Source: Sipunculus nudus
Lineage: Eukaryota; Annelida; Sipuncula; Golfingiida; Sipunculidae
Assembly (NCBI GenBank): GCA_026874595.1
Contig: CM049320.1
Coordinates: 27,700,714-27,764,713, forward strand
Length of the DNA: 64,000 nt
Reading direction: 5' to 3'
Every line of letters starts with the position of its first letter. Within the stretch, counting starts at the first letter, position 1. The notes under the pieces were generated by a model, which saw only the letters and a program-made list of their open reading frames with translations, made no database searches and had not been told where the DNA came from. The translations under genes were made by a program, and so were the position numbers. Positions 37,800-59,640 of the stretch are shown in pieces.

Positions 37800-40227
37800 C
37801 AGTAAATGCAAGCTCAGTCTCGTTGGGGATACGTTTGGGTTTACTGGCGTCTGACAAGTTAATACTTACCTTCTGAAATATAGAATCTGCTACATGACCA
37901 GAGGCTCCGTTTATTGGAATGAACTTAGCAAGTCAAATAGGGTGGGCTGTTTTCAAACCTTGATCAGTCGGTGTATATACCGACTCTCATGCGTCAGTCA
38001 CCCTAACCCTATAGGACCAGCGCTGTCTCTACTGGCATAATTGCCAAATTACCCTCCAATAGTCGCCATGACGTCATGCATGTATTTCCATATACCAACC
38101 CGGCAAGGTCAATCTAGCAAAACTAGTAATACCCGGATGAACAGGAATGTAACACGTAAGGGGCTAAATATAATATTTCATAGGGACTTCCCCTCACTCG
38201 TTTCCTTTTGTAAATGGAAATTTAATATTTTTACAGCCAATTTAGGGATCTCAAATTGAAGCCGGAACCGATTTTGAACTCCGCTGTCTATAAATCATCA
38301 GAGCTTTAGCGGTGACGCTGTCTCCTTTATCTGTCTGGCCGTACGGGTTTAGTTACCAGGGCATTATTTGTATCTGTTGGACATAGAATTTTCTAACATA
38401 ATATCTTTGACAAATCTCCTTGAGAACTTGAAATTAATTCAGTGAAGGGTATTGTTTCCGAGTTAATTGGCGGGTCCGGGTACTGCAGAAATACTTATGT
38501 TCTCTTTTATATAAAAGCTCCAATATCTAAAAGCTACTAAAAGCATGGCATTATGCGTTTTATATTAAGCATTAAGTTTAATCCGAAAATAAACACCGAT
38601 GTTACTAACTGTATATTTCAGCTATATATTTTGTCAGGTATATCGAAGGTCCCTTGTCCACAGCGGTTAGCTTGGTGAACATTTTATGATTCATTGGTAT
38701 AGCTCAGTGGCTGCAAGTACACAGAACAGATCTCAAGCCCATCATGCGTATCAAGTTAGCAGATCAGTGTGGCTTCAGTGTATCCTCGCTTTTAACACAT
38801 CAGACCTTGGTTTTGCAGACGTTTAAGTGTATATTTTTTAAAAACAATTTTTCAACACATCTCATATTTTTTAAATTAATCTAAAGCTATTATTCTGTTC
38901 AATGTGTCACTGATCATGAGTACTCCACAGACGAAGGGAGAATGCAAGATATGCTGATAGAAGCCTTCCTGAATCAGAGAGTGGAGTATTGCAGTGAGTA
39001 ATGCTGAACAGATTATTTATACGGTTAAAATAATTGTTTTGTTGATATTTACATATCATTTTCCTTACTTTTCATAAAAAGGATGTACCACTTCCCAAAA
39101 TATATTGTCAACGTCCGAACTTGCTGCCTAAATATTTGATGCTGTCATTAATACAGACAGATATTTTGAATTAATATTCTTATTGTAATATTACAAATAA
39201 CAATTTGTAATTGGTCCCTGTGGAGATCAAATGCTTTCACAGGTGTAGAGTTATTCAAATATTACACCAACGCACAGTTATGCAGTAATTTTATTGTTTG
39301 AATCGTATTGATGTTTCCACTCCTATATACAAACCTAATGTAATCACTAACCGCCCGAGCATGTATAAACACGCAATATATAATTGTTTTATACATACAG
39401 TTGTTAAAAAGAAGTGTATTAATATGAGTGTATTATTATAAACTTCATTAACACATTGAAAATTTATCTATCCCGGTCCATTATAGATTTATTAAAAATC
39501 AAACATGCCATTTAATTTTTTTAAAAAGTCCATGATACTATTAAATTAAGTACTTGTGTGTGTCTGTGTGAAAATAATTCATTACTAAATTTTATTTACA
39601 CCCATTTTTGTGTTGTCATTCACATATGCTTTCTTATGATAAAAGATGTATAAACCCCCGCTTTCAATCGATTTAAATGAAGCAAATTATCCGGCAATGA
39701 AATGAAAATATTCAGTTTGTTACATAAATGTTTAAGTTGCATACTTATTTGACTGCAGATAATATTGTAATTTATAATAAATACGGGTATTATAATTGGG
39801 ATAATAAAGAAGCGCGTTTTTTTATTTCCAACAAATTAAGTTATTCCTATTTGTATTAAGCTATTTTGAAAAAAATGAGAAGCTGTATTTGGTTAATTAG
39901 CTTTCCATTATCTCGGTATTATATAACATATCGATATAAAATATTTAAAAAATTATGTCTTGGAATTATTTGTAGAATTTATTCTAACAGAACAAAAAAA
40001 TCTTGTTTATTCTACCTGCCCCATGAAATAAGAATTCCTGCGGAATATCAATCTAGTCCTCCCGTATCCCGACTTACTCTATCTGATGCTTGAGTCTTTG
40101 CCGCAGGGCGCCCATTTACACTCAACAGTTTTGGTTACATGTGACACAACAGGCCAGTAACATATATACATTCAGGGTCGCATATCTTTGTAACACGTAT
40201 ATACCGGTATGATCTAGTCCATTTTAG
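37800..40227. other. AT-rich spacer without recognised gene
   Basis: A TAGCTCAGTGG word near 38698 with a degenerate B-box-like CTCAAGCCC 33 bases later could be a decayed tRNA-derived fragment; evidence is weak. Nothing else was recognised. Confidence 0.45.
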
Positions 40228-40294
40228 TCAGACAGCCTTACCTGATGAGTGCAACAACATGTTGCACGAAACTACGTAGTAGTAAAATGTCTGA
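40228..40294 (+). ncRNA. Type I hammerhead ribozyme
   Basis: All invariant parts of a hammerhead are present in order. The core box CUGAUGA is at 40242-40248. Stem II is a perfect 7-bp GUGCAAC/GUUGCAC with loop AACAU (40249-40267), starting with the canonical G10.1-C11.1 pair. GAA plus A15.1 follows at 40268-40271. A short stem III (ACU/AGU) closes on the tetraloop ACGU (40271-40280). The cleavage triplet is GUA, with predicted cut after A40281. Stem I is open: UUAC (40238-40241) pairs with GUAA (40282-40285), then an internal GCC/AA loop, then UCAGACA (40228-40234) pairs with UGUCUGA (40288-40294). Short-stem-III type I hammerheads are known from animal Penelope-like elements and retrozyme-type small circular RNAs. 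Here a (TA)n tract starts 27 bases downstream. No second copy was seen in the window, so the host element is unidentified. Confidence 0.85.
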
Positions 40295-40320
40295 AAATAC
40301 TTGATTCGTCTTCATTTTGA

Positions 40321-40345
<25 letters not shown>
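40321..40345. repeat. (AT)n microsatellite
   Basis: About 12 AT units just downstream of the hammerhead, possibly the tail of its host element. Confidence 0.85.
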
Positions 40346-40353
<8 letters not shown>

Positions 40354-51090: not shown

Positions 51091-52201
51091 TTTTTGTGCA
51101 AGTCCCTACTAATAAGTTGACATACGGATTTGTTTTAGTTTTGCTTTCTGAAAAAGATAAATTTATATGCATGTTACAAACTCACCATTATGTGCAGCTA
51201 CATAATAGATAATAGTCAGCTACATAAAGATTATAGCATACTAGATCATTTTCATAATCTATGAAATTTTAAAAATAAATTTTGTTCAGTATAAATTTTA
51301 CTATGCATCTAATACAAAGAAATCGACCCTATGCAATCATCTGCTTAATCTGTACAGTTATGGGCCGGTCATTCCCATTATGAATGGAACTGACACAACA
51401 TCTTTTATAACCTAGTGACTCAGAGTTATGGTACATAAAGATTCTATCCAAGGTGCAAGTTAAATGCCCAAGCTGGCCAATGATATCTTTTGTGTATACA
51501 AATTCCCATATTGCACATTTTCCTGATATACCTATTACATATAACAACTGTAGATAACAATATCCTCTGTCGTGACTTTTGGGATCAATATATAAAAGTA
51601 ATGTATTTAGTAGTTAATCCAGTATACGCATATGGGATATATTACTTTTTTAACTGAAATAAAGTGAATATATGCTCGTGCTAACGATCAAGTTAATAAG
51701 GAAATTTTCCATTCATGTCTACAAACTCTAGTAGCTAATCCTTGATTAGGCCGGTAAGTGGACTGAACACCTGGATCGTTCTCATCAAGAAAAATAGCCA
51801 GTTGGAAAATGAAACTATTTCCTGTTAATAAAACGGAAAAGCAGTGCTGGTCATTAAACATCACCTGCAAAGCTTCTTGCTTTTCCTTCAGAACCACATC
51901 TCTTCAATGGTGACTCATGTAAATCTGCACAACTTTTGTTAATCTGTTCTCAAACTCTGACATTGTAGTCACGTGTCACTTTCTCAATCAGCGTGCCATA
52001 GACTATTCTATCTTTAATCTGCCGATTAAAGAATAGCTGAAGTGGTTCAGCAGCAACCACAGAGAACCATTAAATATGACATCATCTGACACCTCGTGGT
52101 GTACGTTTGGAAACCCTGTATTGGGCAAAATAGATACATTTCAGCTGCTCATAAAATGCATCTGTAAATAACTAATTTTTTTGTAGTATCTTAGATTGAT
52201 G

Positions 52202-52261
<60 letters not shown>

Positions 52262-52828
52262 TGTGCAAGTCCCTGCTAATAAGTTGACATACGGATTTGG
52301 TTTGGTTTTGCTTTCTGAAAAAGATAAATTTATATGCATGTTACAAACTTACCATTATGTGCAGCTACATAATAGATAATAGTCAGCTACATAAAGATTA
52401 TAGCATACTAGATCATTTTCATAATCTATGAAATTTTAAAAATAAATTTTGTTCAGTATAAATTTTACTATGCATCTAATACAAAGAATTCGACCCTATG
52501 CAATCATCTGCTTAATCTGTACAGTTATGGGCCGGTCATTCCCATTATGAATGGAACTGATACAACATTTTTTATAACCTAGTGACGTGTCACTTTCTCA
52601 ATCAGCGTGCCATAGACTATACTATCTTTAATCTGCCGATTGGTGATTTTTATTAAAGAATATCTGAAGTGGTTCAGCAGCAACCACAGAGAACCATTAA
52701 ATATGACATCATCTGAAACCGCGTGGTGTACGTTTGGAAACCCTGTATTGGGCAAAATAGATACATTTCATCTGCTCATAAAATGCATCTGTAAATAACT
52801 AATTTTTTTGTAGTATCTTAGATTGATG

Positions 52829-58299: not shown

Positions 58300-59640
58300 G
58301 TTTGATGTATTGGACTGATATTTTGACCTGTCTGTGCGTCTTTGATGATATTCTCATCTACAAGACAGGTGGTGGCACCTGCATTGACTTTTGCAGTGTA
58401 TGTGCCTGCTTATTTCTACAGAGGAATTTAATACATCAGCCTAAAATTGGGCATGTTTATACATATCGGGTAGCTTTACAGTGTCTAAGACTGGTGGCGC
58501 CACCTACAATAATTTTTGCACAGTGTATGTCCCTGCTTATTTTACAGGAGGAGTTTGACATATCAGTCTGACATTTGGCATATTTATATATCTCTTTGTT
58601 GTATATAAAACTGGTGGTGCCAGCTACAATTATTGTATCGGCAAAAACAGAGTTTCGGGATACTATGTTTTCAGTCGGACGTCGACGCTGCCGCCATCGC
58701 CGCATAGGTTTCCAGACAACTCCTCCATAACCACTGAGCAGAATTTTTTTTAATTCAGAATTATTATCGGTCACATGTGAACTGCTGCGCTCTCATTTTT
58801 GGTTGACCTCTGACCTTTCCTCTCTGCCCAGCGTCCATTTCCACACATAAACCCACATATCTGAGGAACCGTTTGACCGATAAGGCTAAAGATTTTGCAC
58901 AAATGTAGCCCTTAGAAAGCTTTATAACATACACTAAAAAATGTGGCGCCACCTGCAACAATTTTTGCACAGCGTCCATCTGGTCATCTGCCCTTTGGAT
59001 AAAATCACTCATATCTCGGCAGTGGTTTGAACTTATCCACCTGATATTTTGCAGGTTTATACGTCCTGGACAGCTTTCTTGATTTTATGACAGGTGGCAC
59101 CACCTACATTCAAATTTGCCTTTGGATAAAAACACTCATAATTCTGCATTTGTTGGACTAATCAAGCTGAAATTTTGCATGTGTATACATTCTAGACAGC
59201 TTTCTTGATTTTATGACAGGTGGCGCCACCTACATTCACGTCTAAGCTGCAGACATCCAAGCTCATATCTTGCGAACCGATTGACCAGTTGGGCCAAAAT
59301 TTGCATGTGTATAGATCTCCCATAAATCTTTATTATATGCAGAACTGGTAGCGCCACCTGCACCCATTTTTGCACAGCCTCCATTTGTTCATCTGCCTTG
59401 GGATAAAATCACTCATATCTTAGCTGGGTTTGACTTATCCACCTGAAATTTTTCAGGTGTATACATCCTTGACAGCTTTCTTGTTTTATGACAAGTGGTG
59501 CCACCTACATTCAAATTTACGCTGCAGACATCCAAGCACATATCTCAGGAACCATTTGACCGAACATGCAAAAATTTTGCATGTTTGTAGATCTCACATA
59601 GCTTTTTATCATACTCAAAACTGGTGGCGCCATCTGCAAT
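58300..59640 (+). repeat. Tandem array around the palindrome GGTGGCGCCACC
   Basis: Eight copies of the 12-bp palindrome or one- to two-base variants start at 58493, 58613, 58942, 59093, 59219, 59347, 59494 and 59623, mostly 120-150 bp apart. Each is embedded in a unit of fixed order: TTTGCACAG, then CTCATATCTC, then TGAAATTTTGCATGTGTATA, then CTTTCTTGATTTTATGACA, then the palindrome, then TACA. The units are diverged except for the palindrome and its near flanks. The same palindrome marks repeats at 5.4-9.7 kb. Confidence 0.8.

Follow-up and report, generated by a model that had tools for sequence, protein, structure and literature searches.

A type I hammerhead ribozyme in a probable truncated Penelope-like element of Sipunculus nudus, and insertion scars that may record its cleavage

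The stretch of DNA analysed here (the window, 64,000 nucleotides) carries a type I hammerhead ribozyme (HHR) at 40228–40294 which, judged from its sequence and from that of its relatives, is real. The repeat that contains it is very probably a 5′-truncated, non-coding copy of a Penelope-like retrotransposon, and in this we include a proposed insertion mechanism that uses two sites. We further suggest, tentatively and at a little under even chances, that insertion scars in sister copies record the ribozyme at work, with two start sites each used a single time, on opposite strands of a symmetric (AT)n target, and with cDNA running off at the cut. Coordinates are collected in Table 1.

Table 1. 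Features of the hammerhead ribozyme and of the element copy around it, in window coordinates.
Feature	Position	Strand	Basis or description
Type I hammerhead ribozyme	40228–40294	+	Core, stems, descriptor scan, covariation, family-excluding covariance model
Outer stem I strands	40228–40234/40288–40294	+	7 bp, read directly
Stem I internal loop	Between outer and inner stem I		GCC/AA, read directly
Inner stem I	40238–40241/40282–40285	+	4 bp, read directly
Core CUGAUGA	40242–40248	+	Direct reading and alignment of 30 copies
Stem II	40249–40267 (strands 40249–40256/40260–40267)	+	8 bp, ACA loop
GAA	40268–40270	+	Read directly
Stem III ACUACGUAGU	40271–40280	+	Self-complementary
Predicted cleavage, A40281/G40282	40281–40282	+	Canonical position, equal to b2552/b2553; cDNA-end pile-up in sister copies
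Probable Penelope-like element 3′ end (3′ UTR/pseudo-LTR), 5′-truncated, short end type	40055–40320	+	Sister-copy homology from 40055 to the (AT)n; no tail after it
(AT)n tract, read as insertion target	40321–40353	.	In the sister copies read, most ends of either type (short or tail) run into (AT)n

The 67 bases of the hammerhead can be read directly as a complete type I structure, with the three helices in type I order, stem I open, and a core made up of CUGANGA, GAAA and H17 with A15.1–U16.1. Among 30 aligned copies, the window's included, the CUGAUGA core is nearly invariant save at the free position 40246, which is also the sole core position where the window departs from the majority. A sequence-only reading had claimed a complete type I hammerhead with an interrupted stem I of 4 plus 7 bp, and both points are borne out, the first by the intact core, the paired stems and the covariance model described below, the second by direct reading of the stem strands. 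Its 7-bp stem II is better drawn as 8 bp with a 3-nt loop, though 7 bp with a 5-nt loop can also form; its 3-bp stem III with an ACGU tetraloop is possible, with 4 bp and 2 nt as the alternative. All ten bases of stem III make a perfect palindrome, a self-complementarity that would suit a dimeric ribozyme. The fold has a z-score of −4.0, with none of 200 shuffles equal or better, and the minimum-energy structure contains outer stem I and stem II, a shifted stem III and no inner stem I. Scanned on both strands with a descriptor of minimum stems 4/4/3, the 64-kb window yielded a single site (stems 4/8/4), and a background of 400 first-order Markov windows of 64 kb gave one chance site at 4/4/3 and five at 3/3/3. 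Many copies of family A, to which the window belongs, have a stem II of 4 bp with an 11-nt loop (e.g., L013, L031), the 8-bp form being found in the window and a few others; the 4-bp form looks like an apparently younger subfamily.

A check against Rfam had been proposed, with a score below threshold named as grounds for refutation, and its outcome was unfavorable: RF00163 scored the window site at 17.9 bits (E = 0.12), below the gathering score of 34, and a search of eight loci picked for related hammerheads gave no hammerhead match up to E = 1. The curated cut-off is a limit for searching and not a biochemical definition, and we consider the sub-threshold score outweighed because compensatory changes occur in five related families and because a model that excludes the window's own family detects the site. 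That model, built from seven sequences of families B, C and E, gave the window site 30.2 bits (E = 2.8e−8), the runner-up having 10.3 bits (E = 0.42). In the stretches 3′ of related reading frames a script found hammerheads in 10 of 21; cores of D, C and E type were added by eye in six (L048, L050, L055, L058, L059, L062), and no hammerhead was seen in the remaining five (L046, L054, L057, L060, L061), the L046 stretch lying mostly within the frame. These sequences represent at least four families besides A (B, C, D and E), whose stem sequences differ. Nine sequences from the five families, selected and put in register by hand, make up a covariation table with pairing in 92 of its 98 stem cells and both sides altered at 7 of its 11 pair positions; four of the nine, the window's among them, have a perfectly palindromic stem III. 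The five families preserve the hammerhead fold through compensatory changes, and the search for such copies elsewhere in the genome, also proposed from the window alone, was accordingly positive.

Sister copies are numerous. A 141-base query had at least 41 matches at 91–100% identity in the 1.43-Gb host genome (including the window itself and one 53-base piece, with 40 of 777 first-look candidates scored), and a pattern joining the 3′ half of the ribozyme to the element end had 136 matches with up to three mismatches (the window copy not excluded, 100 places listed), the reversed control having none. The statement that no sister copy is adjacent is correct within the 64-kb window and does not extend to the genome. 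In the alignment the 3′ end of the copies is fixed and the 5′ truncation differs from copy to copy, with the window copy spanning about 40055–40320. Open frames of 544 and 578 aa occur in longer copies of the same repeat, and frames of 554–715 aa in the genome share 94–97% identity across their C-terminal 251 aa. As these longer copies carry frames of 544–715 aa and then the same ribozyme, the window holds a 5′-truncated fragment and not, as had been supposed, an unlabelled non-autonomous retroelement. Nor is an element that ends in the (AT)n tract supported; the tract is more readily taken for the insertion target, since in the loci read (AT)n comes after the majority of ends of the two types described below. 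The ribozyme and the link to Penelope-like elements (PLEs) are what stands of that earlier interpretation.

The frames contain the blocks FDVVDFYPSI, TMGSYDGAE and LYRDDG, which we take to be motifs like those of reverse transcriptase (RT), and a C-terminal block YIG...RY.NH...NTELSK, with R, H, E and N positions judged by eye, which is presumably a GIY-YIG-like C-terminus. The frame blocks are common to a second family at 45–51% identity. Sequence searches of the open frame against Pfam, NCBIfam and PDB gave no significant match, and tblastn against plasmids gave none; because profile and PDB searches do not recognise the frame, the Penelope label rests on motifs and on element anatomy. Elsewhere in the window, neighbouring arrays of 126–127 bp units at 58362–58588 and 58992–59238 have the common motif GGTGGC..CCACCTAC, and the same 22-bp tandem repeat is present at 51187–51236 and at 52354–52403, 1167 bp apart, which suggests a local duplication.

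To ask where cDNAs end, we used unit coordinates (b) in which the core at b2513 corresponds to window position 40242 and the predicted cut lies between b2552 and b2553. To find arms that lack the ribozyme, we set the places listed for three patterns against one another, the lists covering 100 of 136, about 100 of 163 and about 100 of 162 places. Dropping two false anchors from 141 arms left 139; 29 are clipped at the limit of the stretch fetched. The cut site is read through in most copies, and the window copy is one of them. Twenty-five of the 139 family A arms have their 5′ end in b2539–2573, and seven of these short arms, from six loci, end at b2552–2553 (both arms of L119 and one each of L122, L123, L124, L136 and L139). 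At these two pre-set positions 1.43 would be expected over 35 positions (P = 3.8e−4) or 1.61 over the 31 positions sampled by the patterns (P = 7.9e−4), and the Monte Carlo value for any two-base window is 0.013. Four of the seven arms have an A immediately before G2553, which may be a coincidence or may be the cleavage base. A gap-pattern search that demanded nothing upstream of the cut gave three family A mini-pairs, all at loci already within the 139-arm set, with four of six arms at 0 or +1. The same search approach in family D gave nine mini-pairs, against one site, present on both strands, for the reversed control. The script placed 8 of the 18 family D arms at 0 or +1, four of them from two plain palindromes that by eye end at about −4; without the palindromes the count is 4 of 14 (P = 0.02), and with the palindromes as misses it is 4 of 18 (P = 0.06). 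At C6:62108035, a family D insertion, both arms end at the cut with one base between them. Pooled without the palindromes, the count is 8 of 26 (P = 9e−4, the sampled range being estimated).

These ends suggest that the ribozyme cleaves in vivo, a signal that is not fully replicated. A reading that we hold to be a serious one, though short of even odds, is that it never cuts in vivo, so that RT stops, joining at microhomology or chance would account for the ends at the cut, and the hammerhead would owe its conservation to something else, for example to being a structure to which the protein of the element binds. The prevalence of read-through copies is in keeping with this, as are the failure of family B to replicate the pile-up (none of six arms at the cut) and the small number of ends exactly at b2553 in family A (3 of 25, P = 0.045). 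In PAc, the Poseidon element of Anolis carolinensis, ribozyme mutants are described as inserting normally in vitro, and RNA-seq reads starting or ending at the cut as not found (PMC11167929). The excess in family A at two positions set beforehand, the weaker excess in family D and the single insertion with both arms at the cut argue against it and for occasional cleavage.

Another pile-up, larger than that at the cut, lies at the 5′ edge of the ribozyme and counts against our best explanation: 24 of the 51 arms of b2400–2551 end at b2500–2516 (window 40229–40245; L077–L171), where 5.7 would be expected, in a post hoc count for which the inner flank was fetched for some, not every, arm. It may reflect transcript starts, RT stops or cDNA fold-back. 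A promoter at this place (TATA at 40198–40203, Inr-like TCAGTC) was considered and set aside as weak, L064 having no such TATA.

At their 3′ side the copies end in one of two ways. The short end terminates in CTTCATTTTGTATAATTATA, followed by (AT)n; the tail end is about 65 nt longer, to GATCTAT, and is then usually followed by (AT)n. The tail is the beginning of the next unit's leader, as read in the tandem copy L067, and the window copy has no tail sequence after 40320. Head-to-head pairs, defined as two anchors within 6 kb, combine one tail and one short end in all 37 typed pairs of the mapped set. The script typed 33 of these; three had one end resolved by eye, and one was scored tail/tail by the script, its outer end being short because the left arm is tandem. 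The side of the tail varies (17 left and 19 right in the script count, which includes the pair scored tail/tail). L009, L014, and L035 with L004, also fit unequal ends and lie outside the 37-pair count; the head-to-head neighbours at L008 and L011 were left out of it, the partner's end being missing from the stretch read. L017 faces an inverted tail across its own (AT)n. Among the mapped arms there are no tail-to-tail neighbours within 6 kb, and the 65 unpaired arms comprise 25 short, 22 tail and 18 untyped ends. Some loci were fetched for their pair-like look, which should not bias the end types. Identity over the arm overlap of longer pairs is 99–100% in L029, L031, L032, L041 and L042, and 93–96.5% in L003, L038, L078 and L085.

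The head-to-head pairs thus appear to use two adjacent start sites once each, and the simplest reading is that each pair represents two cDNAs, one per target strand, from two adjacent sites. Self-priming, in which a nucleic acid folds back and copies itself, has been proposed for Penelope elements of rotifers (PMC3846280) and could draw on the ribozyme stems, which are inverted repeats and in which many junctions of short pairs fall. Simple self-copying would give two outer ends of the same type, and the inequality of all 37 typed pairs is a clear rule that speaks against it; we regard self-priming as unlikely.

On the reading with two cDNAs, the element would nick (AT)n DNA, and reverse transcription would begin at two neighbouring positions, some 48 nt and 113 nt beyond the ribozyme cut on its 3′ side. 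Each target strand would be served by one start site, the (AT)n offering the same primer on both strands. The two cDNAs would then be linked head to head; alternatively, and this would apply to the window copy, a single cDNA would be linked to the flank. Since most cDNAs read through the ribozyme, most templates would be uncut there, and the usual template seems to be uncut RNA, which is also the case in PAc. A minority would be cut, since some cDNAs stop at the cut; a cut template would give run-off exactly there, and with it a minimal insertion. If this is true, cutting parts the coding region from the priming sites and would be a brake on transposition or a trimming step. The role and in vivo activity of PLE hammerheads have been called a mystery (PMC7761336), and counting genomic cDNA end points is a cheap test of both. 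Our literature search of titles and abstract beginnings found no published counts of cDNA ends at a hammerhead cut. Any genome with many Penelope-like elements would allow a check of the head-to-head rule or of the sign of cut templates.

Tandem copies show where the ribozyme sits in the full unit. L067 has a unit of 2665 bp with a hammerhead after each unit and interrupted frames; the ribozyme lies about 340 nt past one stop codon, ahead of the next unit's leader and ATG, a site between units that we take to be the pseudo-LTR (pLTR) position of Penelope-like elements. In a second tandem, at C14, the ribozyme ends are 2667 bp apart. Tandem and inverted copies with an optional tail, as expected of pseudo-LTRs, and an AT-rich target, as expected of Penelope-like elements, are both present. 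A related tandem array of period ~2925 bp (G000:C17:42718783–42830671; L046, L048, L069) has at least 27 matches listed, 22 of these 27 with a 713-aa frame; its spacing implies about 39 units, with an apparent higher-order repeat of ~38.02 kb (13 units), and a D-type hammerhead lies in the single inter-unit stretch read. Further related arrays, with periods of ~2427 or 2930 bp, are found at C3:95.74–95.75 Mb, C17:31.68–31.69 Mb, C9:65.45–65.47 Mb and C12:49.44–49.51 Mb.

This unit length also bears on whether the window holds a metazoan non-LTR retrozyme, that is, a non-autonomous tandem repeat of 150–450 bp with a type I hammerhead that spreads through small circular RNA. A canonical-looking type I hammerhead with helix III in a context of low GC does resemble animal retrozymes, including that of mussel, as they are described in PMC7229834. 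We reject the reading, which is very improbable, on unit length and ORF: the tandem unit is 2665 bp long, the repeat is continuous with frames of 544–715 aa in longer copies, the 5′ truncation points vary, and no head-to-tail tandem of 150–450 bp was noticed in the loci read. A DNA transposon with terminal inverted repeats, which the inverted pairs might bring to mind, is ruled out by the 5′-truncated copies, the fixed 3′ end and the unequal outer ends.

Hammerheads in the pseudo-LTRs of Penelope-like elements are known (PMC6155905, PMC7761336, PMC11167929). The window element is like those of Cervera and de la Pena (2014), as described in PMC7761336 and PMC6155905, in having a hammerhead within the pseudo-LTR and tandem copies, and the RT and C-terminal GIY-YIG of Penelope-like elements generally have their counterparts in it as candidate motifs only. 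Published PLE hammerheads are, in the same two accounts, usually minimal and without helix III or loop contacts, whereas the window family has helix III, which in the window is 3–4 bp long and goes with a long helix II and a helix I that is interrupted. Metazoan retrozymes, as presented in PMC7229834, share a type I hammerhead with helix III, but have no ORF and a repeat of ~170–400 nt. In the Penelope families of Adineta vaga, a tail on one inverted pLTR was noted and self-priming proposed; inverted pLTRs, an optional tail on one of them, AT-rich targets and head-to-head arrangement are all shared with the window element, and the words hammerhead and ribozyme are absent from the main text of that paper (PMC3846280). 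For PAc, the optional tail is explained by two internal RT start sites (PMC11167929). Going by that account, and on the mechanism proposed here, PAc and the window element are alike in two adjacent RT start sites, an optional tail, an AT-rich target of which both strands are cut and extended, and a hammerhead at the junction of pLTR and ORF. They differ in that in PAc the hammerhead extends over the beginning of the ORF and RT initiates within it, whereas the window element has both of these 5′ of its start codon, and in that the end sequences of the window element look similar to its (AT)n target.
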